From: Chryseobacterium sp. VAUSW3
GTDB lineage: Bacteria > Bacteroidota > Bacteroidia > Flavobacteriales > Weeksellaceae
DNA length: 64,000 nucleotides
NCBI RefSeq assembly: GCF_002205795.1
Contig: NZ_NIUY01000003.1
Location: 124,001 to 188,000 of the forward strand
Reading direction: 5' to 3'
Numbering within the stretch: position 1 is the stretch's first letter; every line of letters begins with the position of its first letter. Positions 32,727-45,520 of the stretch are shown here, piece by piece. Both the position numbers and the translations under genes were made by a program. The notes under the pieces are model-generated. The model had not been told where the DNA came from and did no database searches. It saw only the letters and a list, made by a program, of their open reading frames with translations.

Positions 32727-34115
32727 ATGAACATCGATTACCGTGATCCCTGGGTACTGTTGCTGAACCTCACCGTCATATTCATCCTCATCCTGCTGAT
32801 TGTTCCCACGCTCCTCAACACGAAGGAAAGACTGGGTGTCAGGCTTTCGTTCTCTGCAATTTTTATGATCGTGGCAGTAAACTGCATGGCCAATCTGGCC
32901 CTGTTTTACACTCAGGATGTGGCGTATTTTGATTTTCTCTTTCTGCAGGCGTTTATTCCGTTACTTTTTGGTCCGGCCATTTATTTTTATGTGTTGCTGA
33001 ACAATGGCGGAGAAATCAAAAGACCCTGGATTCATTTTATTATTCCTTTTTTGGCCATTCTGTACGGAATTTATCATGTTCAGATGGATCAGGGAGATAA
33101 AATGCGGGTTTTCCGGGAAGTGAACGCGGCCCAGAATCTTTCGTACAATATCCTAAACATACTGGTAATGAGCATCCCGCTGATCTATTTTTACTTTTCA
33201 AAACGCTATCTCAAGCGTCTGCATATTCAACCTGCCGATCCCCTGGCTATGCTCAAAAAGATCAAAATCCAATGGTCGCACGAATTCATCAATCTTCTTC
33301 TTTTCTGCGTTTTTTCTTTTCTTGTGATTATAATTGTTGCTACCTACTTTTATCAGGTGCCGCAACCTTACCTGGATCTTATCGGGATGCCCATTTATTT
33401 TCCGCTGATTTATGCGGTGATCGCGGTGCGAAGTAATATGATCTCGAAACAGCTGGAAATGCAGTACGCAGTTTCCAAAGCTGAGGAAGACAACCGGCTT
33501 CGCGATCAGCGCATCGCCATTTCGCGGGACCTTCATGACAATATAGGCGCCTATGCCACCAGCCTGATTTCAAAGATCGACTATCTTGCGGTGGAGGAGA
33601 AAGCGGGGAAGGGAGCACTGGAGGACCTCCGCGAACATGCCGAAAGTATTCTGGGTCTGCTGCGGCAAACCCTCTGGGTGCTGAACAATGACACCATCAC
33701 CGTAGAAGATTTTTATGATCATGTAAAGCAGTACGCGCTGAAAAGCTTCAGAAACAGCGGCATAACCATCCGTTTTGAGGAAGACATAAGGGACAACCGG
33801 ATTCTGCCATCAGAAATCACCATAAACCTTTTCAGAATCCTGCAGGAAGGCCTGCAGAATGTCATGAAACATTCCGGTGCCACCGAGGCCGAACTTTATA
33901 TGATTTCCAGGGATACGGTAAGAATCAGTTTGCGGGATAACGGAAAGGGATTTATTGCGGATGATCATCATGAAGGCTATGGGCTTGGAAATATAAAGGC
34001 CAGAGCCGCAAATATCGGCTTTACTGCAACACTGTCATCAGAGGAAGGTAAGGGGAGCATTCTGGTTCTGGAAGAAATACGCCCAACCGCGTATAGAAAG
34101 CCGGAAGTCATTTAA
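32727..34115 (+). CDS. Membrane sensor histidine kinase (HisKA_3 type)
   Basis: A 462-residue sensor kinase. About six to seven hydrophobic segments fill residues 8-235; no large extracellular domain. The dimerisation segment carries the phosphoacceptor His270 in SRDLHDNIGAYATSL, and the ATP-binding domain shows VMKHSGATEAEL, LRDNGKGFIADDHHEGYGLGNI. HisKA_3 kinases pair with NarL-type response regulators, and one follows 19 bp downstream. The signal is unknown. This is the first of two kinase/regulator pairs within 8 kb. Confidence 0.9.
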   Translation: MNIDYRDPWVLLLNLTVIFILILLIVPTLLNTKERLGVRLSFSAIFMIVAVNCMANLALFYTQDVAYFDFLFLQAFIPLLFGPAIYFYVLLNNGGEIKRPWIHFIIPFLAILYGIYHVQMDQGDKMRVFREVNAAQNLSYNILNILVMSIPLIYFYFSKRYLKRLHIQPADPLAMLKKIKIQWSHEFINLLLFCVFSFLVIIIVATYFYQVPQPYLDLIGMPIYFPLIYAVIAVRSNMISKQLEMQYAVSKAEEDNRLRDQRIAISRDLHDNIGAYATSLISKIDYLAVEEKAGKGALEDLREHAESILGLLRQTLWVLNNDTITVEDFYDHVKQYALKSFRNSGITIRFEEDIRDNRILPSEITINLFRILQEGLQNVMKHSGATEAELYMISRDTVRISLRDNGKGFIADDHHEGYGLGNIKARAANIGFTATLSSEEGKGSILVLEEIRPTAYRKPEVI

Positions 34116-34134
34116 CTAATTTTACATCAAAAAC

Positions 34135-34788
34135 ATGAGACTCGCAATCGTTGACGACAGCTTCCTTAACCGGAAAACCCTCAAGGAAAAGCTTTTGCCT
34201 TACGCGGAAGTGGAACTCGTGCTGGAGGCAGATAACGGTGCTGATTATCTGGAAAAACTGAAAGAACTTGCACCCGCTCAACATCCGCAAATCGTACTCA
34301 TGGATCTGGAGATGCCTTTCTTGGACGGGATCTCGGCTATTTCAATTTCAAAAGTTAAATATCCTGAGCTCAAGTTTATTGTGCTCACCATCTACGAAGA
34401 TACAGACCGTATTTTCGAGGCCATAAAGGCGGGTGCCAACGGCTATCTGCTGAAGGAAGACAAGGCCGTGAATATTGTGGAAGCTCTGGAAAGTGTGCTG
34501 AATTACGACAATATCCCCATGAGTCCGGCCATTGCGCGAAGTGCGATGCGTCTTTTATGTGAAGAAAACCGGCCCAACATCACCCCCTCCGAAAGCCAGC
34601 TGCTATCCGACCGGGAAATGGATGTCCTGAAACTGATGGTGAAAGGGCACCGCTATTCCGATATCGCCGCACGGCTCTTCATCAGTCCCAATACAGTGCG
34701 TACCCATGTGAACAATGTGTATAAGAAGCTTCATCTTTCGTCGAAGAGCGAGATGATGGAGCTGGCGCGTAAAAATAACTGGCTGTAA
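34135..34788 (+). CDS. NarL/LuxR-type response regulator
   Basis: A 217-residue regulator. The receiver domain has the acidic pair Asp7-Asp8 and the phosphorylation site Asp57 (IVLMDLEMPF), and a Lys of LLKEDK; the C-terminal LuxR helix-turn-helix is at about 155-215 (LSDREMDVLKLMVKGHRYSDIAARLFISPNTV). It is the partner of the kinase upstream. The palindrome at 34808, 19 bp downstream, is a good candidate for its DNA site. Confidence 0.92.
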   Translation: MRLAIVDDSFLNRKTLKEKLLPYAEVELVLEADNGADYLEKLKELAPAQHPQIVLMDLEMPFLDGISAISISKVKYPELKFIVLTIYEDTDRIFEAIKAGANGYLLKEDKAVNIVEALESVLNYDNIPMSPAIARSAMRLLCEENRPNITPSESQLLSDREMDVLKLMVKGHRYSDIAARLFISPNTVRTHVNNVYKKLHLSSKSEMMELARKNNWL

Positions 34789-34807: not shown

Positions 34808-34855
34808 ATACGCTGTTCAGCGTATGTACTGCGCGGAAATAATTATACAACTTTG
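34808..34855 (+). promoter_or_regulatory. NarL-type 7-2-7 operator and promoter, copy A
   Basis: ATACGCTGTTCAGCGTAT (34808-34825) is a perfect 18-bp palindrome readable as TACGCTG-2-CAGCGTA, the 7-2-7 form that NarL-family regulators bind. After 22 bp comes CAACTTTG (34848-34855), close to the -7 box. It is in front of the gene cluster 35002-37736. A near copy with the same spacing is at 37829. Confidence 0.6.
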
Positions 34856-34873
34856 TACTGTAGGGCAGTGAGA

Positions 34874-34969
34874 ATGATGATTTTACCGCTTCAAAACAAA
34901 AAATACACTCAGGCTTTCCATAAAGACAAAGCGCAATTCTTTTCGTATCAAACATTATGGTTATTATAA
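34874..34969 (+). CDS. Possible 31-residue leader peptide
   Basis: An ATG 18 bp after the -7 box at 34848 opens a 31-codon frame starting MMILPLQNKKYTQAF and ending QTLWLL before a stop, 32 bp ahead of the next gene. A second 31-codon frame ending KTLWVP sits in the same place behind the twin operator at 37829. The repeated layout and the shared TLW near the end make this worth recording, but neither frame has homology evidence; both may be chance. Confidence 0.25.
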   Translation: MMILPLQNKKYTQAFHKDKAQFFSYQTLWLL

Positions 34970-35001
34970 ACTGACTTAAAAAAACCAAATTTTAATTAAT
35001 T

Positions 35002-35412
35002 ATGTTTTTCATGATGGGATTTTCAGCCTTTGCGCAAACTGCGTTCCGTGAAGGCGTAACCTTTAAAGGGAAGGCAGACGCAGACTGCGTTCCTAGAAAG
35101 CGAAATTATCATTATCCGGCCACCGAAGAAACAGTATCAATCGAAAATGGCAGCATTACAAAAATAGTGAATCCAGCCGCAGACCGTACGAAAGCCGCAA
35201 TGCAACAGACAAATGATGCGCATACCGCCACGACCTGTACCCGCTGTAATGGAAAAGAGGTTGCAGGATATTCAAGGGTAAGTATAACCAATTCATCAAA
35301 AAATTTCAGCGTAGACCGATACCTGAATGGCCACTACACCACGACCACAAGATATGGTGATATTCTATTCCCAAATATCTGCACAGAATGCGGTGGAAAA
35401 GGAGTAAAATAA
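35002..35412 (+). CDS. Unrecognised small exported protein with Cys-pair ends
   Basis: A 136-residue protein starting with a very short hydrophobic segment (MFFMMGFSAFAQ), which looks like the tail of a signal peptide; an in-frame stop 6 bp upstream of the ATG prevents a longer start. Two CxxC pairs, CTRCNGKE at about 74 and CTECGGKG near the end, resemble a DnaJ-type zinc-binding pair. The function is unknown. First in a run of five genes on the plus strand. Confidence 0.65.
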   Translation: MFFMMGFSAFAQTAFREGVTFKGKADADCVPRKRNYHYPATEETVSIENGSITKIVNPAADRTKAAMQQTNDAHTATTCTRCNGKEVAGYSRVSITNSSKNFSVDRYLNGHYTTTTRYGDILFPNICTECGGKGVK

Positions 35413-35436
35413 TATAAATAAACAAATAAACAAAGG

Positions 35437-36033
35437 ATGAAAACAATCACCAATTACCGAAAGCACATGCTCTGTTTTTTAATCTCAGCGATTACCTTCC
35501 TTACTGGAATGTTTTTTCCTACTGTCGTTACTGCCCAAAACCCCGCACCTGCAAACACGGCGACCGCACATTTACAGATGAATGTCAACGGTAAGTCCAT
35601 GCAGTTTGACCAGGGAAAAATTCAGGCGTTTACCATTAAAGAGGACGGTTCGGTCGGTATTCTTGCACAGACCACTTCAGATATTCTCACTGCCAATATT
35701 GTGGTATTGAATATAACCCCCGCTGACAGCAGCAAAACCATTACGAAAGGAGAATATAAAATTTTACCGGAAGATGTTGTATCAGATTTCATGGTCAGGG
35801 CAGAATATGGTGAAAATAAAAATTTTCTGTTCTGGTGGAGCGATGCCAGTAAGGTAAAAGGAGGCTCAGTTTCTATTGATGAAATTACCGCTTCAAGGAT
35901 CAAAGGCAGGTTCTCATTTACCGGTGTATTGCAGAAAGAGGATGGCAGCATGGACACTAAAAACCTGGTGAAAATATCCAATGGCGTTTTTGATCTTCCC
36001 TTGGAAGTTAAAAGTCGGTTGGATTCCAGATAA
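35437..36033 (+). CDS. Unrecognised secreted protein
   Basis: A 198-residue protein with a signal peptide (hydrophobic 11-30, cut near VVTAQ) and a beta-rich mature part: HLQMNVNGKSMQFDQGKIQAFTIKEDGS (in part) and TASRIKGRFSFTGVLQKEDGS. The pattern resembles small exported proteins that bind or mimic a carrier fold, but I do not recognise the family. 24 bp after the preceding gene. Confidence 0.65.
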   Translation: MKTITNYRKHMLCFLISAITFLTGMFFPTVVTAQNPAPANTATAHLQMNVNGKSMQFDQGKIQAFTIKEDGSVGILAQTTSDILTANIVVLNITPADSSKTITKGEYKILPEDVVSDFMVRAEYGENKNFLFWWSDASKVKGGSVSIDEITASRIKGRFSFTGVLQKEDGSMDTKNLVKISNGVFDLPLEVKSRLDSR

Positions 36034-36065
36034 CGAAACATAATTTCCTGGCAAATATTGTCAAG

Positions 36066-36305
36066 ATGAAAAAACTAAAACGCTGGCTTTACGCAATTGC
36101 CATCCTCATTTTTTCAACTTTACTGGTTGCATTTGCTTACGATATGGAACAAGGCACGCCCATCGCACTGTCGAGCACGCAGGCTGGCAGGCAGGAAATG
36201 CTGATGTGGGTGGCTGAGGTATTAGGATTTAAAGGCAGCATTGTAGTAGGGGTGCTGGCAACGGGTTTCGGTTTGTATTATGCCATTAGTCAACACTTCA
36301 GGTAG
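36066..36305 (+). CDS. Small two-span membrane protein
   Basis: A 79-residue protein with two hydrophobic segments, LYAIAILIFSTLLVAFAY and KGSIVVGVLATGFGLYYAI, separated by a polar loop with EQGTPIALSSTQAGRQEM. No family recognised. 32 bp after the preceding gene and probably in the same operon. Confidence 0.6.
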   Translation: MKKLKRWLYAIAILIFSTLLVAFAYDMEQGTPIALSSTQAGRQEMLMWVAEVLGFKGSIVVGVLATGFGLYYAISQHFR

Positions 36306-36349
36306 ATAGAGAAGAAACAGTGATATAACAGTGCAAAAATTAATCAATA

Positions 36350-36847
36350 TTGTTGAGTAACGCTATAAAATTTATTGGCATCATATTCATTATACTCGGC
36401 ATCATCTCCGGCCTGCTGGGCGTGCGCTCCTACCTGCGTGATGATGCTTATGCAAAAGCAAGTGTGGTGGTGAAATCATCGGTAAAGTGGGCGGAAGTAA
36501 TACCCAATCCCTGGAAAAGTACGGTGAGTATTAAATTGATGCTGAGCTACATGCGGGACGGCGTACCGGACAGTTTAGAACACAATTATTCCCTGTTTTA
36601 TTCCCAGCACGAACCGTTGCCGACTGTAGAACAATTAAAAGCAGCAACGCCGTATATTCGATACGTGCCAAAAGAAAAAAGAAGTAAAAACATCCCGGAT
36701 TGGGTGATGGTGGGCAGCAAGGATCAGCATGATGGGGTATATGGTTACACAGGGTTTACTTGGATGTTCCGGTTTTTGCTGTCGGGAACAGCCCTGATGA
36801 TTTACAGCAAAGTCAGGAAGCAGAACAGGGGGCCTTTCCAATTATGA
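36350..36847 (+). CDS. DUF3592-like membrane protein
   Basis: A 165-residue protein with a membrane helix at each end (IKFIGIIFIILGIISGLLG; WMFRFLLSGTALMIYS) and between them a soluble part with an SVVVKSSVKWAEV strand, IKLMLSYMRDGV and FYSQHEPLPTVEQL, a layout seen in DUF3592 proteins. Function unknown. The only start is TTG (36350). The gene sits 44 bp after the previous one. Confidence 0.6.
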   Translation: MLSNAIKFIGIIFIILGIISGLLGVRSYLRDDAYAKASVVVKSSVKWAEVIPNPWKSTVSIKLMLSYMRDGVPDSLEHNYSLFYSQHEPLPTVEQLKAATPYIRYVPKEKRSKNIPDWVMVGSKDQHDGVYGYTGFTWMFRFLLSGTALMIYSKVRKQNRGPFQL

Positions 36848-36872
36848 AAAATACATCATCAACATCATTTTC

Positions 36873-37736
36873 ATGAATACATTTCTAAAAACTGCTAAGC
36901 GTCACCTGGCAATAGTGGTGGATTTCCGGAATTATTATAAAAAACCAAACAGTTCCGGACTGCTGCTGCTGTTATTGCTTTTTGCGAACAGCCTGTATGC
37001 CATATCACCGGGGAATTATCCAGCATCCACTACCCCTGCTGAAATACTCAATGATTTGCTGGACGGTGAATACCAGGCCACTCAAAAGGCAGTAAAATGG
37101 TTGGCCACGCCCGGCGATGTACATGAATTTAACGGGCAGCTTGGGGAGAACAGCGTTTTATATTCTTTTATTGACACCACAATGACCGTCAAGCGTGGAA
37201 ATGAGAATGTATATTATACAGTTTTCCGAACATCGCCAATGGTTTCCAATGAAGATGGAGAATTTGTGAATGCCAACAGCTGCCACATGTGCGGAGTTAG
37301 TCTTGGATATTTTTCTTACACCATAGAGAATGACAGCATTTATATTCAGAAGTTCAAACGCAATTTTGCGACACACGGCTCCTTTGGCGAAAAGTCATAT
37401 ACCTTATCAATGATCAACTTAGGCGACGGCTACGAGCTTTTAAAGGTGGATGATCCGTACGAAGGAATGGGAATCAATTCGGTGGGCACCAAATTCTACC
37501 GGGAAGGTGAACTGATGCTGAGCCTGATTACCGAAGAAAACAACCGGGGCAACCGAAACAGGAACCACAAAGGGTACTATGAATTTAATACCGACTTTGC
37601 TTATAGCAATAAGGCGCACAGCATCACTGTAAAACAGACCGGGTATACGATAGATGAAGAGTCGGGAAAAAGAAAGAACATCAGTAAAATCAGAAAAATT
37701 AAGGTGGGAGATGACAGTCTTCAGTTCCAGCAGTGA
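36873..37736 (+). CDS. Unrecognised membrane-anchored or exported protein
   Basis: A 287-residue protein. A long charged N-terminal segment (about 28 residues) precedes a single hydrophobic stretch (GLLLLLLLFANSLYAISPG) that could be a signal peptide or an anchor. The remainder is beta-rich (LGENSVLYSFIDTTMTVKRG; YYTVFRTSPMVS) with a CHMC pair near residue 133. No family recognised. The gene follows the previous one by 25 bp and closes this cluster of five. Confidence 0.55.
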   Translation: MNTFLKTAKRHLAIVVDFRNYYKKPNSSGLLLLLLLFANSLYAISPGNYPASTTPAEILNDLLDGEYQATQKAVKWLATPGDVHEFNGQLGENSVLYSFIDTTMTVKRGNENVYYTVFRTSPMVSNEDGEFVNANSCHMCGVSLGYFSYTIENDSIYIQKFKRNFATHGSFGEKSYTLSMINLGDGYELLKVDDPYEGMGINSVGTKFYREGELMLSLITEENNRGNRNRNHKGYYEFNTDFAYSNKAHSITVKQTGYTIDEESGKRKNISKIRKIKVGDDSLQFQQ

Positions 37737-37828
37737 TTGACGGATACAGCACTTATTTCAGCTTCAAACCGCAGACACGAGGAAAAAATAGCACGAAGCG
37801 CATAATCTTTAAAGCATTCTGTTTTAAT

Positions 37829-37876
37829 ATACGCTCAAAAGCGTATTTTTACCTTACACCAGTTTGTACATCTTTG
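37829..37876 (+). promoter_or_regulatory. NarL-type 7-2-7 operator and promoter, copy B
   Basis: ATACGCTCAAAAGCGTAT (37829-37846) has perfect ATACGCT / AGCGTAT half-sites with a 4-bp centre. Exactly 22 bp later comes CATCTTTG (37869-37876). The spacing, and seven bases on each side of the centre, equal copy A at 34808. It controls the TPR kinase gene. Confidence 0.6.
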
Positions 37877-37888
37877 TCCTGAATCATC

Positions 37889-37984
37889 ATGCCGGAAAAA
37901 GAAGGCCGGAAAGAACCACTGAAATATGAAAACAGCTCTCCCCACGTCCTGTTCAACTCACCGAAAACCCTCTGGGTGCCGTAG
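37889..37984 (+). CDS. Possible 31-residue leader peptide
   Basis: An ATG 12 bp after the -7 box opens a 31-codon frame (MPEKEGRKEPLKYEN... ending PKTLWVP). It overlaps the annotated start of the kinase gene in another frame and ends 10 bp before a TTG at 37995 that would give the kinase a normal signal peptide. It matches, in length and position, the small frame at 34874. Support is from layout only. Confidence 0.25.
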   Translation: MPEKEGRKEPLKYENSSPHVLFNSPKTLWVP

Positions 37985-39941
37985 ATTATATGAATTGCGG
38001 CTGACCAAAGTCGTTGGCTTCCGTGCGTTATTATTCGTGTTTTTATTTGCGTTCCCTGTTCTACAGGCACAGAATCTTTCTGAGGTCATCAGCAACCTAA
38101 AATCGGAACTCACCAAAAATCCAGACGATAAGAAACGCGCATCGGTGTATGCCGATCTCACCTGGTATTACGCCAGTGTTTCTGTGGATTCTGCGCTCAG
38201 CTACGGTAAAAAAGCCATTGCAGCCACCGAAAAACTTCAGGATTCCGTATTACTTGCCCAGGTTCACAGCGATCTGGGAGCGGTTCATTTCCGGAATAAT
38301 GATTTTAAGAAATCCGAACAGCATTATCTGAAATCCTATCAGATCCGGAAAAAGCATAAGAATGCTGCGGGGATTGCCAAACTTAATAATAACCTTGCTT
38401 CCGTGTACCAAAGCAGCTTTCAGTACACCAAAGCGATGAAAATGTATCTGGAAGCCCTTAAATATTTTGAAGCAAAGGGTGATGCCAGAAATGCGAACAT
38501 TACAAAGGCGAATATCGGGCTTCTGTTTGTGGATCTGAAAGACAATCCTAATGCGGTGAAATATATCGGTGAAGCCGTAAAATATTTTGAGTCTCAGGAA
38601 AGAAGCGTGGAAATCGAGAACAAACTCTGCGAAAATTACCTGAACCTTGGAAAAGCATTCCAGATGCAGAAAAAATATACGGAGGCAGAACTGCAGTATC
38701 AGAAAAGTTCGGAGATCTGTAATAAAGTCGGCAACAAACAGGGTTTTTCGTTCGCCAACAGAAACCTGGGCAACCTGTATACCCTTCAGCGAAAAGATTC
38801 CCTGGCCGCCGTAAACCTGCAGGTGTCTCAGGAAGTTCGTGAAGAATTCAATTCCAAAATCGATCAGGAAAGCAACAGTATCGACGTCGCGCAGCATCTC
38901 ATTGTACAGGGAAAATATCCGGAGGGAAAGCGCATGCTTTTAAAAATCCTGCCGCTATTCGAAAAAGAAAATTCAAAGGAAAACCAGCTTTCCACCTACA
39001 AACTGCTTACGAATGTGTATCATCACCTGGCAAAGCCGGACAGCGCAGAGTATTATTTTGAGAAATACATCGCGCTCGATAATGAGCTCGTAAATGTGGG
39101 AGTAAGCAGCAGCACGGCTGAACTTGAAAAGAAATACCAGACCCTGAAGAAAGACAGTGAAATCCTTCAGCAGAAATCCAAAATCCTGAAAAGAAACGTG
39201 GCCCTGCTCTCGCTGGTAGGCGTACTGCTGCTGGGCGCAGTGTTCTACCGCAACCGCCAGCACCGCCAGAAAGCCGAACTTCAGAAAGCCATTCTGCACC
39301 AGCAGGATCTGGCCACCCGGGCGGTCATTACCGCGGAAGACAATGAGCGCAAAAGAATGGCCAGCCACCTTCACGACGGTGTTGGGCAGCTTTTAACGGC
39401 GGCCAACATGAATGTGAGCGTGCTGAATGACTATAAAAATGATCCGGAGAATTTTAATACGATCATTCACAGGACTTCGGGTATCCTGGCAGACGCCATC
39501 AACGATGTCCGTACCCTTTCTCATCAGATGATGCCTAACATGCTCATTAAAAATTCGCTTACCAATGCCTTAAGGTATCTCATTGAGAAAATCTCATCGC
39601 CCAAACTTACCGTGAACCTTCAGATTGAGGGGCTCAACAACGATCTTGACCAGAATATCCAGGTTACGCTCTACCGCATCATTCAGGAATGCATCAACAA
39701 TACCATTAAACATTCCGGTGCTGATAAAATTGACATCTCCGTCATCCAGACCGATCAAAGAATCACCACAGAAATTGCAGACAACGGCAAAGGCTTTGAC
39801 CCTGCGAAAGTGATGGACAAGAGAGACGGCCTCGGACTTCAGAATATGAACGCACGCATTGAACTGCTGAAAGGGCAGGTGCGTATAGACAGTGCGGCGG
39901 GCGAGGGCACCCGAATATTCATCCAGATTCCAACCGTTTAA
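37926..39941 (+). CDS. TPR-containing sensor histidine kinase
   Basis: A 671-residue sensor kinase: signal peptide region, TPR repeats (about 50-400: QVHSDLGAVHFRNNDFKKSE, AKLNNNLASVYQSSFQYTKAM and others), one membrane helix (about 420-440, VALLSLVGVLLLGAVFY), a coiled linker, HisKA_3 dimerisation segment with His483 (MASHLHDGVGQLLTAA) and an ATPase domain (IKHSGADKIDIS, IADNGKGFDPAK, GLGLQNMNARI). TPRs in the periplasm should sense a partner or ligand. The ATG at 37926 gives an unusually long charged start; a TTG at 37995 (MRLTKVVGF) gives a normal signal peptide. The response regulator follows 12 bp later. Confidence 0.9.
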   Translation: MKTALPTSCSTHRKPSGCRRLYELRLTKVVGFRALLFVFLFAFPVLQAQNLSEVISNLKSELTKNPDDKKRASVYADLTWYYASVSVDSALSYGKKAIAATEKLQDSVLLAQVHSDLGAVHFRNNDFKKSEQHYLKSYQIRKKHKNAAGIAKLNNNLASVYQSSFQYTKAMKMYLEALKYFEAKGDARNANITKANIGLLFVDLKDNPNAVKYIGEAVKYFESQERSVEIENKLCENYLNLGKAFQMQKKYTEAELQYQKSSEICNKVGNKQGFSFANRNLGNLYTLQRKDSLAAVNLQVSQEVREEFNSKIDQESNSIDVAQHLIVQGKYPEGKRMLLKILPLFEKENSKENQLSTYKLLTNVYHHLAKPDSAEYYFEKYIALDNELVNVGVSSSTAELEKKYQTLKKDSEILQQKSKILKRNVALLSLVGVLLLGAVFYRNRQHRQKAELQKAILHQQDLATRAVITAEDNERKRMASHLHDGVGQLLTAANMNVSVLNDYKNDPENFNTIIHRTSGILADAINDVRTLSHQMMPNMLIKNSLTNALRYLIEKISSPKLTVNLQIEGLNNDLDQNIQVTLYRIIQECINNTIKHSGADKIDISVIQTDQRITTEIADNGKGFDPAKVMDKRDGLGLQNMNARIELLKGQVRIDSAAGEGTRIFIQIPTV

Positions 39942-39953
39942 AGGAGAGGCGTT

Positions 39954-40592
39954 ATGAAAGTCGTTATTATTGATGACCATCAGATCATTATCGACGGGAT
40001 TGAAATGCTTCTCGGTCTGGAGAAAAATATCTCAATCCTGAAAACCTATACCGATGCCTTTGATTTTCTTCACGAACTGAGGGCAGAGGAAATACATCCC
40101 GATCTCATCCTGATGGATTTAATGATGCCCACGATCAACGGATTTGAATGTGCCAAAATCCTTAAGCGGGATTTCCCGGCTATCAAAATCATTATCCTCT
40201 CGATGAACTGCGACCCGAAGACGGTTTATGAACTGACAGAAAAAGTAAAGATTGACGGTTATCTTTCTAAAAAAGTAAGCCGCCAGGATCTGGTGAAAGC
40301 GCTGGAGGATGTACATTTAGGATATATGCACCTCAGCACCGAGGCAGAGACTGCGCTGAAGCAGTTTAAGAGCAAAGTCATCGTTTATCCGGAAATAAAA
40401 CTCACGCTGCGCGAAAAGCAGATCGTGAAACTGATGATCGACGGGTGTACCAATAAGGAGATTTCCACCGCTCTTTTCATCAGCGAAAGCACGGTAGAAA
40501 CCCACCGCAAAAACATCTACCGAAAAACGGAAACCCATTCCGTTCCCAAGCTCATACAGGCCGTAGCTGATCTCGACCTGCTGGCCGACTGA
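39954..40592 (+). CDS. NarL/LuxR-type response regulator
   Basis: A 212-residue regulator with receiver acidic pair Asp7-Asp8, phosphorylation site Asp55 (LILMDLMMPT) and a LuxR helix-turn-helix (LTLREKQIVKLMIDGCTNKEISTALFISESTV). Partner of the TPR kinase directly upstream. Together with the regulator at 34135 this is the second NarL-type protein in the region; either could bind the 7-2-7 palindromes, and copy B in front of its own kinase suggests autoregulation. Confidence 0.92.
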   Translation: MKVVIIDDHQIIIDGIEMLLGLEKNISILKTYTDAFDFLHELRAEEIHPDLILMDLMMPTINGFECAKILKRDFPAIKIIILSMNCDPKTVYELTEKVKIDGYLSKKVSRQDLVKALEDVHLGYMHLSTEAETALKQFKSKVIVYPEIKLTLREKQIVKLMIDGCTNKEISTALFISESTVETHRKNIYRKTETHSVPKLIQAVADLDLLAD

Positions 40593-40623: not shown

Positions 40624-40670
40624 ATACCCACTGCCGGGTAGATCGCCGTGTGGCTTTTGCTCTACCTTTA
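40624..40670 (+). promoter_or_regulatory. Weaker 7-2-7-like site and promoter, copy C
   Basis: ATACCCACTGCCGGGTAG (40624-40641) keeps the ATAC / GTA ends of copies A and B around a TACCC / GGGTA inverted repeat. TACCTTTA (40663-40670) follows after 21 bp, and a TAnnTTT box is preserved. The match is weaker than for A and B, so the assignment is tentative. Confidence 0.35.
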
Positions 40671-40688: not shown

Positions 40689-42575
40689 ATGATGAAAAAA
40701 AAATCTCTTCTGTTTGCATCGTTTGTTCTGGCAGGTTCGTTTGCGACTGCGCAACAAACGACTTTCAATGTTCTTGAAAAAGATTACGAAATTTCCCGCA
40801 AAGCCAAGAAAGGCTATCTGGGTGGTGTAGAAGCCAAGGAAAACGGCGGTTTCGAGATGGTGTACTTTCTGCCCTCGAGCCGTAGAAAAGTGAAGGTGGA
40901 AGCCTATACGTTCGACAAAGATGCCAACCTTACCAACACCATGAAAGACGAATGGGACGTAGAGAAAGTAAAGAAAAAATGGAAATTCTTCAACTTTAAA
41001 GGCGATGAATATACCACGACGGCAGCTTCTGTAAGCACCAACCTCACAGGAAAAATGATGTTCAAAAAGCGTGAAATCAAGGCGAAATACAACTGGCTTG
41101 CCGGGGATTACGTGAAGAGAGTGAAGCTGCTCGACCGCCAGAAACTCACCAGTGAAAACGGTGAAGAGTACCTTTTTAGCGGCGCGTACGAGGTAGAACG
41201 GGACAGCACGATTTACGCCCTGGCTTATCCTTATACCAAAGGTGCGGCCATGCAGAGCCTGGACCTGGTGAAGATTTCGAATACGGGTGAGTCCAGAAAA
41301 ATAGCGTCTGTTGCCACGCCAAGCCCTGTAAAACCTATATTCTCCAAACCGCTGCTCGATGAAAACAGCCGCGATGTTTCGAACGATGATTTCCCACGGG
41401 ACTGGATCGTGGTTCTGGCACCTACCAAAATCTACGGCAAAGGCAGCGCAGGAAATCCAAATCAGCTGACTTATCTCCGGATTTCTCCGGAAGGAAATGT
41501 TAAAGAGCAGTTCAATTTCACGGCGCCTTCTGCGGGATACCGCATCCTCAATGCTTATGCAAAAGGAAATGAGGTGATTTTGTACGGTATGGGCATTAAA
41601 AAAGAGGGCAAGTATGCCGATGAAATCTTAGGAGCCACTGTATCTCCATCCAGTATGGATGATAATGAGCAGGCGGCGGCCAAGTCCACCGGCGGTATGC
41701 TGGGCGGCCTCGGGAAAATGGCCAACATGGTTTCCGGAAAAGACGATATGGCACCGTCTCAACAGTCGCTGGACAATGCCTTGGATGAAAAAAAATATGA
41801 TGACTTCATTATCGCCAAGATTTCCGGGCAGCAGCTGTCGGTGATCAGAGCCACGCCAATGGCAGAACTGAACAGCAAAGCTGTAGCCGGACCCGATATG
41901 AAGAAAGCCCTGGAGTTTGACGGTAAGAAATTTGTGACCAACAACTTCCAGATTCTTAAAGATGGCTCCATGATGCTGAGTGTTCAGGATTACAAGCCCG
42001 AAGGAAAAGGAATCGGGTTGCCGGGCGGTAAAATGCTGGGCGCACTGGCCGGAGTTTCCACCAGCAGAAGCGGCGACAGCTACGACCGGATTTACAAAGG
42101 AATGTATCTGCTTCACTTTTCACCGGAGGGCAATCTTGTAAGAAATTATACGGTGCAGCTGGATCAGAAAAACAAAAAAGGATTCTTTAACAATTCACCC
42201 ATGACGGCAGATAATTTTCCTGCCATCGGTTATCTGATCGAAAGTAAGGACGGCAAGTCAGTAAACTGGGTGATGGAAATTGTAAAAGCCATTGATGTGG
42301 ATACGGATGTAAGCACCTTCAGTAATTTCTTTTCAGGAACTTCCACAACTACGACAACCAAATCCTATTCTCCTTTCTACAGCATTGAATATGGCAAGCT
42401 CGACCTGGCTACCGGCAAATCTTCGGAATTCAGAACGCTGGGCGACCTAGAGAAGAAGAAATACTACCTGTACCCTAAGCATAACCGATTGCAGATTGGT
42501 GATTACACGTACTTCTTCAGCGAAACCCCGAACGGCGACCGCCTGCTCGTTTCGAGAATGGACGTTAAACAGTAA
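40689..42575 (+). CDS. Unrecognised secreted protein, about 628 residues
   Basis: A large exported protein with a signal peptide (MMKKKSLLFASFVLAGSFATAQ) and no domain that I recognise. The mature part is rich in beta strands, with a glycine- and methionine-rich insert (GGMLGGLGKMANMVSGKDDM, about 360) and GGKMLGALAGVSTSRSGDSY (about 470). No sorting domain is seen at the C-terminus, so it stays in the periplasm or outer membrane. The start at 40689 is chosen because it gives the signal peptide. It is preceded by a possible response-regulator site. Confidence 0.65.
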   Translation: MMKKKSLLFASFVLAGSFATAQQTTFNVLEKDYEISRKAKKGYLGGVEAKENGGFEMVYFLPSSRRKVKVEAYTFDKDANLTNTMKDEWDVEKVKKKWKFFNFKGDEYTTTAASVSTNLTGKMMFKKREIKAKYNWLAGDYVKRVKLLDRQKLTSENGEEYLFSGAYEVERDSTIYALAYPYTKGAAMQSLDLVKISNTGESRKIASVATPSPVKPIFSKPLLDENSRDVSNDDFPRDWIVVLAPTKIYGKGSAGNPNQLTYLRISPEGNVKEQFNFTAPSAGYRILNAYAKGNEVILYGMGIKKEGKYADEILGATVSPSSMDDNEQAAAKSTGGMLGGLGKMANMVSGKDDMAPSQQSLDNALDEKKYDDFIIAKISGQQLSVIRATPMAELNSKAVAGPDMKKALEFDGKKFVTNNFQILKDGSMMLSVQDYKPEGKGIGLPGGKMLGALAGVSTSRSGDSYDRIYKGMYLLHFSPEGNLVRNYTVQLDQKNKKGFFNNSPMTADNFPAIGYLIESKDGKSVNWVMEIVKAIDVDTDVSTFSNFFSGTSTTTTTKSYSPFYSIEYGKLDLATGKSSEFRTLGDLEKKKYYLYPKHNRLQIGDYTYFFSETPNGDRLLVSRMDVKQ

Positions 42576-42651: not shown

Positions 42652-43098
42652 ATGAAAAAGTTACATTACGTGTTTTTCTCCCTGTTTTTAGTCACCTTAC
42701 TGATGACGGGATGCGAAAGAGACAGTGAGCCGGAAAGCACCACACCGCCTGCCTCCGCAGGATTTAGCTGGCGTGAGAACTCCACCACGGCACCTCTGAA
42801 AACCGCAGGATCTTCGGAAGTGCGTACGCAGTACAAATCTATTTTTGCCTTTACGGGTGCCACGGCAACTTCGGGAACGGTGTTTGAGTTCAACCTTTCC
42901 GGACTTTCCCCTGCGACCTATCCCGTGAATGCCACCAATGCGTTTTATTTTAACGGAAATACAGCCACTCCCGCAACCGGCGAAGTGGTCATCACCGCCA
43001 ATGCAAACGGCAAAGCTTCCGGCACCTTTAACGCGACCTGGACGAGCGGAACCGTTACCTCAGTGTACGGCACCTTTACCGATATTCCGGTGAAATAA
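42652..43098 (+). CDS. Small lipoprotein, function unknown
   Basis: A 148-residue protein with an SPII signal (lipobox LLMTGC, Cys21). The mature part is Thr/Ala-rich and beta-rich (VFEFNLSGLSPATYPVNATNAFYFNGNTATPATGEVVI, read in part). No family recognised. It sits 76 bp after the previous gene, and the ELWxxDGT-repeat gene follows after a terminator-like hairpin. Confidence 0.65.
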   Translation: MKKLHYVFFSLFLVTLLMTGCERDSEPESTTPPASAGFSWRENSTTAPLKTAGSSEVRTQYKSIFAFTGATATSGTVFEFNLSGLSPATYPVNATNAFYFNGNTATPATGEVVITANANGKASGTFNATWTSGTVTSVYGTFTDIPVK

Positions 43099-43115
43099 AT
43101 TTTGATGTATTCCTA

Positions 43116-43150
43116 CCCGGGCGGACCCTGAAATCCGCTGGGTTTTTTAC
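43116..43150 (+). terminator. Probable intrinsic terminator
   Basis: GCGGA / TCCGC with further CCC / GGG pairing around an 8-nt loop, followed by six T. The stem has unpaired bases, so it is weaker than the others. Confidence 0.5.
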
Positions 43151-43168
43151 CTTTTAAAATATTCAGAC

Positions 43169-45520
43169 ATGAAAAAAATTCTACTTTTCAGTTTAATGAT
43201 GCTGGGCATTACAGGCAGCGCCCAGCTTACAGTTGTGAAAGACGTATCTGCAACGGGTTTAAGACCTACCGATAACGAGCACTTTATATGGCAAAACAAC
43301 CGCTGGAACGGCAAGCACTACTACGGGGTAACAGTATCGCCCAGTGTCGCTATAGCAGTAACCGACGGAACCGACGCGGGAACAAAGGTGATTAAAAATT
43401 TAGGGCATTCCGGTGTTCTAAGTGCTGCAATAAAGGCCATAATTCCTGCAAAGGATCACTTTTATATTCACGTCTATGTATATAAAAGTTGGAGTCCCTA
43501 TGTTCAGTATGATGAACTGTGGAAGTCGGATGGTACAGACGCAGGAACTGTATTGCTGAAACGGTTCGATGAACGGGGAGCGACTACTGAAGGCATATCC
43601 ATCACCACTGACCAATATGAAGCAGTAAACCGCTCCCTCAGTGGTAATGAAATGTACTTTTACGGATATACAGGTAGTAATGGCAGAAAAATATGGAAAA
43701 CGGACGGCACTGCTGCTGGTACCTCAATGATTGCTGATAAATCCGGTAATGCACTGACAAGACTGAATAATGACGTTTATTTTGCTTCCGATTTTAAATT
43801 GTGGAAAATCAGCGGCAATACGGGAAGCGTAGAACTGATTGATGTTCCGAATATTTTTATTGTAGCTACTATGCGCATGGCGGCGTTTAAAAACAAACTC
43901 TATTTTATGGGTTTTGATGAAACCAATGGGGTAGAGTTATGGTCCTCCGACGGTACGCCTTCCGGAACAAAAATTTTTACCAATACATCCCCGCTTACCA
44001 ATAATGTGTACAGTCTCACAACTTTTAATCTCACATCAACGGATGATTATCTCTTATTTTCAACTTTGCATAACGCTTCCGACAACACCCGGCATACGCT
44101 ATACCGTACCGATGGGACGCTCGGCGGCACCGTGCAGATTTCGCCTGCTGACGCCATAGATGCGGGAACGAGCTCGGGCTCCATGTTTTCCAAAACCAAT
44201 CAGAATTTTTACTGTTTTAATATGAGCCAGAAAACCATCTTCCGGACCAATTATCAGGAAAACGGTTACTCAATTGTTTCTACAGGTGCCTATAATGCAG
44301 GAAATCTCGTCGATTACAAAGGTACAGCCTGGTATGCTGGTGGAACCGCCAATATGTCCGGAAATAATGATTTCGCGGAACCGCACCGCACCGACGGCGT
44401 TCAGACCGTAAAAACCTTTGATATCATTACGCTGATGCAGGGAACTAATAACATCGGCTCCAATCCTTTTGGCTTTCATGAATTAAACGGGAATCTGTAT
44501 TTTTTTGCAGGACTGGGAAATGCGATGAAACTGTACCAGTTTCAGGGTGACTATACCTTCAACAGGTCAGCCGGCAATTCGTGGAACGCTCCCGGCAACT
44601 GGAATACTGGGGTGGTGCCGCTTTCTTCTGAAGACACTCTGGTTCCTGCTGGTTCGGATGTTGAAATTTCATCTGCAGCATCAGCAAGAAATCTTGCGCT
44701 CAATGCGCCACTTCATATTGTTTCCGGCAGTTTAAACCTTGCAGGGGACTTAGATTTAAATTCAAGAATTACGCTGAATAACAATGCTGTGAATCTCAAG
44801 GGAACATCTTCCGCCATCACCGGCGGTAACACCAATAATTACATAGTCACTAACGGTACCGGCACCGTGAATGTTGAAAATGTAAATGCCGGTCGAGGAA
44901 CGGTAAACCTTCCGGTTGGAACAGCGAACAATTACAATCCCCTTACGCTGGCGAACTCCGGAACTTCTGATACTTTTTCAGTGAAAGTCTCTGAAGGAAT
45001 TGCGAACGCGCCAGGCGGTGCGGTGAATGCAACCTGGGACATCTCGGAAGGTACGCCAGGCGGAAGCAATGCCACCATTTCCTTAGGCTGGAATGCTTCC
45101 CAACAGAACGGAACCTTTAACCCGAACAATGCCACCGTCGGACATTATGTAAACGGTGTCTGGACGGCCGAAAACTCCGGTGCGGTGAGCGGCAGCAATC
45201 CTTACACCATCACCGGAACAGGAATCACCAGTTTTTCTCCTTTCGCGGTGATGAATCTTGGTGCGCTCGCAACTGCAGATCCGCTGAAAAAGAACATCTC
45301 CGTATATCCAAATCCGTTCAGGGAGATACTTACCGTTACTTCACAGGATAAAGCCACCGTACATTTCTACGATATGACAGGCAAAATGGTGGGCAGCCAC
45401 GCTTTGGTGAAAGGAACCAATGTGCTGAACCCGGCAGCACTCAAACCCGGCGTTTACCTTTATCAAGTGAAAAATACTTCCGGAAATGTGATGGCTTCAG
45501 GCAAAGTGATTAAGAAATAA
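43169..45520 (+). CDS. T9SS type A protein with ELWxxDGT repeats
   Basis: A 783-residue exported protein with a signal peptide (about 1-18, SAQ). Residues 20-450 carry repeats with the ELWxxDGTxAGT signature: ELWKSDGTDAGT, IWKTDGTAAGT, ELWSSDGTPSGT and LYRTDGTLGGT. The repeats probably form a beta-propeller. A stretch rich in GGN and NNY follows, then a type A sorting domain (VYPNPFREILTVT; LKPGVYLYQVKNTSGNV). It is probably a surface or released binding protein; the ligand is unknown. Confidence 0.87.
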   Translation: MKKILLFSLMMLGITGSAQLTVVKDVSATGLRPTDNEHFIWQNNRWNGKHYYGVTVSPSVAIAVTDGTDAGTKVIKNLGHSGVLSAAIKAIIPAKDHFYIHVYVYKSWSPYVQYDELWKSDGTDAGTVLLKRFDERGATTEGISITTDQYEAVNRSLSGNEMYFYGYTGSNGRKIWKTDGTAAGTSMIADKSGNALTRLNNDVYFASDFKLWKISGNTGSVELIDVPNIFIVATMRMAAFKNKLYFMGFDETNGVELWSSDGTPSGTKIFTNTSPLTNNVYSLTTFNLTSTDDYLLFSTLHNASDNTRHTLYRTDGTLGGTVQISPADAIDAGTSSGSMFSKTNQNFYCFNMSQKTIFRTNYQENGYSIVSTGAYNAGNLVDYKGTAWYAGGTANMSGNNDFAEPHRTDGVQTVKTFDIITLMQGTNNIGSNPFGFHELNGNLYFFAGLGNAMKLYQFQGDYTFNRSAGNSWNAPGNWNTGVVPLSSEDTLVPAGSDVEISSAASARNLALNAPLHIVSGSLNLAGDLDLNSRITLNNNAVNLKGTSSAITGGNTNNYIVTNGTGTVNVENVNAGRGTVNLPVGTANNYNPLTLANSGTSDTFSVKVSEGIANAPGGAVNATWDISEGTPGGSNATISLGWNASQQNGTFNPNNATVGHYVNGVWTAENSGAVSGSNPYTITGTGITSFSPFAVMNLGALATADPLKKNISVYPNPFREILTVTSQDKATVHFYDMTGKMVGSHALVKGTNVLNPAALKPGVYLYQVKNTSGNVMASGKVIKK

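Follow-up and report, generated by a model that had tools for sequence, protein, structure and literature searches.

In Escherichia coli, activation requires no more than one NarL 7-2-7 site, with its centre 32 bp upstream of the -10 element, at -44.5 (PMC9314961, PMC7419079). The palindromes described here resemble the NarL operators of E. coli (TACYYMT-N2-AKRRGTA, as at ogt and yeaR) in their inverted half-sites, TAC...GTA ends and 16-bp span. NarL activates from a single site centred about 43-45 bp upstream; the sites studied here share that position, and activation from it is our prediction. Of the two operator classes that we distinguish, class B (TACCCNN-N2-NNGGGTA) fits the outer letters of the NarL heptamer, whereas class A has GY/RC in place of CC/GG. 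In contrast to E. coli, the promoter is of the Bacteroidota type (TAnnTTTG) and the regulators come from a different phylum. By sequence, the closest solved relatives of both regulators, RR1 and RR2, are VraR/LiaR-type proteins (PDB 5hev, 4gvp), with a receiver and a LuxR/NarL helix-turn-helix domain. The likeness between the proteins is distant (best E 1.4e-26, for RR1), and no cell-wall regulon is evident at the locus. Known Bacteroidota pairs of a TPR sensor kinase and a LuxR-type regulator share the domain layout and gene order of 37926-40592, but here the pair lies under the predicted operator of a neighbouring regulator and has its own predicted operator on the next gene. Our searches of the open-access literature brought up no operator described for NarL-type regulators of this family.

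We consider it very probable that the palindromes at 34808 and 37829 are activator-binding sites of RR1 and that the 40624-type element is the site of RR2, the two forming a two-tier cascade with two operator classes. All positions refer to the window, that is, the whole 64-kb stretch of DNA analysed.

Gene content of the cluster

The cluster reads, on the + strand throughout, HK1, RR1, five orphan genes, a TPR kinase, RR2 and a secreted 627-aa protein (Table 1). As the earlier note on this DNA had recognised, both regulators are of the NarL/LuxR type, with Response_reg (PF00072) and GerE (PF00196) above cut-off in each; their phospho-acceptor aspartate motifs are MDLEMP (RR1) and MDLMMP (RR2). 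The closest named relative of RR1 is from Chryseobacterium sp. HSC-36S06 (93%).

Table 1. Genes, predicted operators and promoter boxes of the cluster
Feature	Position	Strand	Basis or remark
HK1, membrane histidine kinase	32727..34115	+	Pfam PF07730 (HisKA_3), PF02518 (HATPase_c); orthologs directly 5' of RR1 in relatives
Class A operator 3, ATACGCCCAACCGCGTAT, in HK1 3' end, predicted RR1 autoregulation site	34077..34094	+	same place in relatives
-7-like box TAATTTTA	34117..34124	+	22 bp after operator 3
RR1, NarL/LuxR-type response regulator, predicted class A binder	34135..34788	+	Pfam Response_reg and GerE; co-occurrence
Class A operator 1, ATACGCTGTTCAGCGTAT	34808..34825	+	
-7-like box CAACTTTG	34848..34855	+	exactly 22 bp after operator 1
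Insert gene 1, 136 aa, CxxC pairs, no family	35002..35412	+	no match at the equivalent locus of relatives
Insert gene 2, 198 aa, DUF6252 sub-threshold	35437..36033	+	
Insert gene 3, 79 aa, small membrane protein	36066..36305	+	read from sequence
Insert gene 4, 165 aa, membrane	36350..36847	+	
Insert gene 5, 287 aa, no family	36873..37736	+	this genome only, among 321
Class A operator 2, ATACGCTCAAAAGCGTAT, also terminator-like	37829..37846	+	identical sequence between RR1 and TPR kinase in G005
-7-like box CATCTTTG	37869..37876	+	exactly 22 bp after operator 2
TPR histidine kinase	37926..39941	+	Pfam TPR_12, HisKA_3, HATPase_c
RR2, NarL/LuxR-type response regulator, predicted class B binder	39954..40592	+	Pfam; co-occurrence with class B
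Class B operator ATACCCACTGCCGGGTAG	40624..40641	+	before the 40692 ortholog in 18/18 RR2+ genomes having that gene
-7 box TACCTTTA	40663..40670	+	21 bp after class B operator
Predicted RR2 target, 627-aa secreted protein, no assigned family	40692..42575	+	

Class A sites in the window and in the genome

The earlier note had described duplicate palindromes at 34808 and 37829, each 22 bp from a promoter box. Both match the sequence exactly, and the observation is stronger than was then claimed: the search of the whole genome that the note had suggested places exact copies of ATACGCT-N4-AGCGTAT at these two positions and nowhere else in 2.63 Mb, with about 0.011 predicted from base composition. 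Up to two mismatches add just two places genome-wide, of which one, at 34077, belongs to this cluster. This third site, which had been overlooked, is probably an RR1 autoregulation site; it lies within the final codons of HK1, and 10 bp separate its box from the RR1 start. Within the window alone, three matches with up to three mismatches against 1.35 expected are not significant, and the case therefore rests on genome-wide and comparative counts. The relaxed core WTACGYN6RCGTAW occurs three times in the window (0.04 expected), all inside 3.8 kb.

Between the copies at 34808 and 37829 the loop and the spacer sequence differ, while the arms, the 22-bp length and the box are kept, a pattern that looks as selection on an operator would leave it. 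A motif scattered without relation to promoters, which would have spoken against an operator, is not what we found; the boxes stand at fixed spacing and the sites track RR1.

Promoter geometry

From the variants at orthologous loci we defined class A as WTACGY-N6-RCGTAW with a spacer of N22 and the box pattern NANNTTTR; class B is ATACCC-N6-GGGTAK with N21 and TANNTTTR. When cores were counted without selecting on the box, it stood at exactly 22 bp in 12 of 14 distinct class A cores and at exactly 21 bp in 7 of 8 distinct class B cores, the local box rate being about 0.6% per position. The exceptions are G036 (23 bp), G289 (22 bp) and a terminator-like hairpin in G023. The boxes agree with TAnnTTTG or depart from it at one to two bases. 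In flavobacteria this sigma-A -7 box occupies -12 to -5 (PMC9723704). The class A centre lies 31 bp before the -7 box and the class B centre 30 bp, so that, with start positions taken from the published box location, the centres fall at about -43.5 and -42.5.

These positions, together with weak core promoters, lead us to infer activation rather than repression. The window class A promoters have no TTG at -33 and imperfect -7 boxes (two have CAnCTTTG in place of TAnnTTTG, and the box of the 34077 site has A as its last base), which suits an activator, and the site position matches NarL activation at ogt (PMC7419079). That RR1 and RR2 are instead repressors, blocking the -33 element at these sites, we regard as unlikely, even though the right half-site overlaps the -33 position and several relatives' class A sites end in TATTG, which puts TTG at -33.

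Both classes have the 7-2-7 form, that is, two inverted 7-bp half-sites with TAC outer ends and a 2-bp gap: TACGYNN-NN-NNRCGTA in class A and TACCCNN-NN-NNGGGTA in class B. The comparison with NarL binding sites made earlier thus stands for the 16-bp TAC...GTA geometry but not for the heptamer TACYYMT: class A has G at position 4, and class B follows it through positions 1-5 and is variable further in. By analogy, class A would work like a NarL site, yet it is not a NarL consensus site.

The recognition helices read NTVRTHVNN in RR1 and TVETHRKN in RR2, each invariant within its class and different from the other. This difference suits two non-overlapping operator classes, with the deciding residues predicted. 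As a lead only, in a comparison at the putative equivalents of E. coli NarL positions 188 and 192, RR2 keeps K at 192 and RR1 has N.

Class A sites track RR1 across relatives

Of 321 family genomes, 17 have an RR1 ortholog. Five of the 321 contain the exact motif, all of them with RR1 and every site beside it (naive P ~2e-7). Class A with N22 and box, at zero mismatches, is present in 16/17 genomes with RR1 vs 0/17 without (Fisher 1.5e-8; this test, like that for class B and RR2 below, ignores shared ancestry, and the patterns are patchy within one genus). The sole RR1+ genome lacking such a match, G036, has the site at a spacing of 23 bp.

Class A sites precede RR1 in G005, G023, G004, G007, G010, G013 and G033 and, in degenerate form, in genus g8; directly before RR1 none was found in G285, G288 and G289. 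They precede the TPR kinase in G005, G004, G007, G010, G013, G033 and G285, and follow RR1 in G036, G288 and G289, with a variant in G228. Where RR1 is absent from a genome or lies elsewhere in it, no class A site stands at the TPR-kinase promoter. The sites are kept before RR1 and the TPR kinase though the proteins are just 55-65% identical between species, and the spacer sequences differ. A link to a regulator of the cluster had been proposed before, with either regulator as candidate; the link holds, but the distribution across genomes ties the ATACGC/GCGTAT sites to the 34135 product alone. Near more distant RR1 homologs (Chitinophagaceae L013, Lewinella L014) and near some regulators of marine Flavobacteriaceae (L023, L024, L026) we found no class A-like site with a promoter box, and we therefore claim the operator assignment within this family, the Weeksellaceae.

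RR1-type sites elsewhere precede genes for secreted proteins, a CNNM/CBS membrane protein and a nucleotide-sugar-epimerase-like gene. In genus g8 (L126, L127, L128, L150) class A stands before a 268-aa secreted protein, twice in tandem in G225 and G227, and also about 300 bp 5' of the CNNM/CBS membrane protein gene. The predicted RR1 regulon of genus g8 differs from that of the window.

A second, putative operator class tracks RR2

The element at 40624 had been taken for a weaker version of the same palindrome with 21-bp spacing. The element and its spacing are real, but it belongs to a distinct class tied to the 39954 product and is not a weak copy. Class B with N21 and box is found in 18/19 genomes with RR2 vs 0/19 without (Fisher 1.1e-9), and the reversed pattern, used as a control, has no match in all 38 genomes. 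The one RR2+ genome without a match, G289, has a class B site at a spacing of 22 bp. Among the RR2+ genomes with a 40692 ortholog (Table 1), G021 and G015 carry the site before that gene with one mismatch (GGTGTA right arm). One genome, G023, has the 40692 ortholog without RR2; there class A stands instead, 22 bp from AAAATTTG. We read this as a single case of putative operator exchange, in the predicted direction.

TAC...GTA ends and 16-bp geometry are common to the two classes, and both regulators are NarL-type, so one could propose that both, or RR2 alone, bind the ATACGCT sites and that the 40624 element is a decayed version of that operator. We hold this to be improbable: the loci and searches made for genomes with RR2 and without RR1 (G018, G022, G032, G226, G258, G273) gave class B and no class A, G023, with RR1 and without RR2, has class A only, and class B is itself sharply conserved at a spacing of its own.

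Class B sites elsewhere precede ELWxxDGT-like, FGE-sulfatase-like and other secreted-protein genes. In the window, 42652-45520 holds two genes, one lipoprotein-like and one for an ELWxxDGT-repeat protein with a T9SS sorting tail, whose relatives bear their own class B sites in other genomes (L161, L166, L167). These two genes may join the RR2 regulon here too, perhaps via read-through from 40692.

A predicted two-tier cascade

In the cascade that we favour, a phosphorylated RR1 dimer would bind the TACGY-N6-RCGTA inverted repeat; the bound class A site would overlap a weak or absent -33 element, and RR1 would recruit sigma-A RNA polymerase there. RR1 would activate its own gene (34077) and the TPR-kinase-RR2 operon (37829) and, in this genome alone, the five-gene block (34808). 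RR2 would recognise ATACCC-N6-GGGTAK, one base nearer its promoter, and activate the secreted-protein gene 40692. The predicted order runs from HK1-RR1 to RR1 itself and TPR-kinase-RR2, and from there to the secreted protein. We infer binding and its dependence on phosphorylation; what we read directly from the sequences is where the sites lie, how they are spaced and conserved, and with which regulator each class co-occurs.

The predicted system would be a further, unusually clean instance of known NarL-type regulation. A wider interpretation, which might prove right or wrong with about equal chance, is that of an insulated cascade of paralogous NarL-type regulators whose orthogonal operators, 2 bp per half-site and one base of spacing apart, are rewired by operator exchange, with the G023 target coming under the first-tier operator after loss of the second tier and the orphan block being captured in the window. 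From sequence alone, two operators could be assigned to two regulators, with fixed promoter geometry and target genes predicted in 26 genomes. The RR1/RR2 pair provides a natural test of how paralogous regulators separate their targets and how a target gene changes master.

Terminator-like palindromes

The palindromes could also be intrinsic terminators of the genes upstream, RR1 and the last insert gene. The copy at 37829 has a 7-bp stem followed by TTTT and was picked up by a terminator scan, and G023 has a similar hairpin after RR1 (L075), with a TTCG loop and a T run and no promoter box. As a general explanation this is highly improbable, because no + strand T run follows at 34808 or 34077 (of the three sites, 37829 alone has the terminator form), the site at 34077 sits in a coding region 5' of RR1, and termination leaves the exact box spacing and the tracking with RR1 unexplained. 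The 37829 copy may be both operator and terminator.

The L075 hairpin, AATACGCC-TTCG-GGCGTATTTTTTTT, is a class A-like palindrome in the form of a textbook terminator and lies 48 bp upstream of the 40692 ortholog's class A operator. Either an operator may have become a terminator here or a terminator an operator.

The five-gene block

G005, whose RR1 is 98% identical, lacks the block: between its RR1 and TPR kinase stands a single palindrome with the sequence of the 37829 copy. Profile searches gave no family above cut-off for the insert genes, and the 287-aa protein has no relative in the 320 other family genomes. The G+C content of the block is 0.42 vs 0.44-0.47; besides this slightly lower value the block shows no sign of mobility, and no integrase or transposase was found in it. 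That 34808 and 37829 are end repeats of a mobile element that carried in the five genes would fit the position of the block, exactly between both copies, and its absence from G005, where the only palindrome corresponds to the right-hand one, but this is very unlikely indeed given that G005 and others have the palindrome without the block, that copies also stand before RR1 and before unrelated genes, and that the block has neither integrase nor transposase. On the best reading, RR1 has brought five genes that its closest relative lacks under a predicted first-tier operator.

Sequence variation at individual genes

In G005 and G023, HK1 ends in a TGA directly past the class A site (GCG TAT TGA). 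A T to A change in the window (34092-34115) makes AGA of this TGA; HK1 is seven residues longer and the RR1 promoter loses the TTG at -33. The TPR-kinase ortholog of G258 (L122) matches in two pieces that overlap, which points to a frameshift around residue 405, and the 40692 ortholog of G225 (L119) is split by about 1.3 kb near residue 500, possibly by an insertion. At only about 4-13 nt, the leaders predicted for RR1 (34124-34135) and, in several relatives, for the TPR kinase would make these transcripts nearly leaderless.
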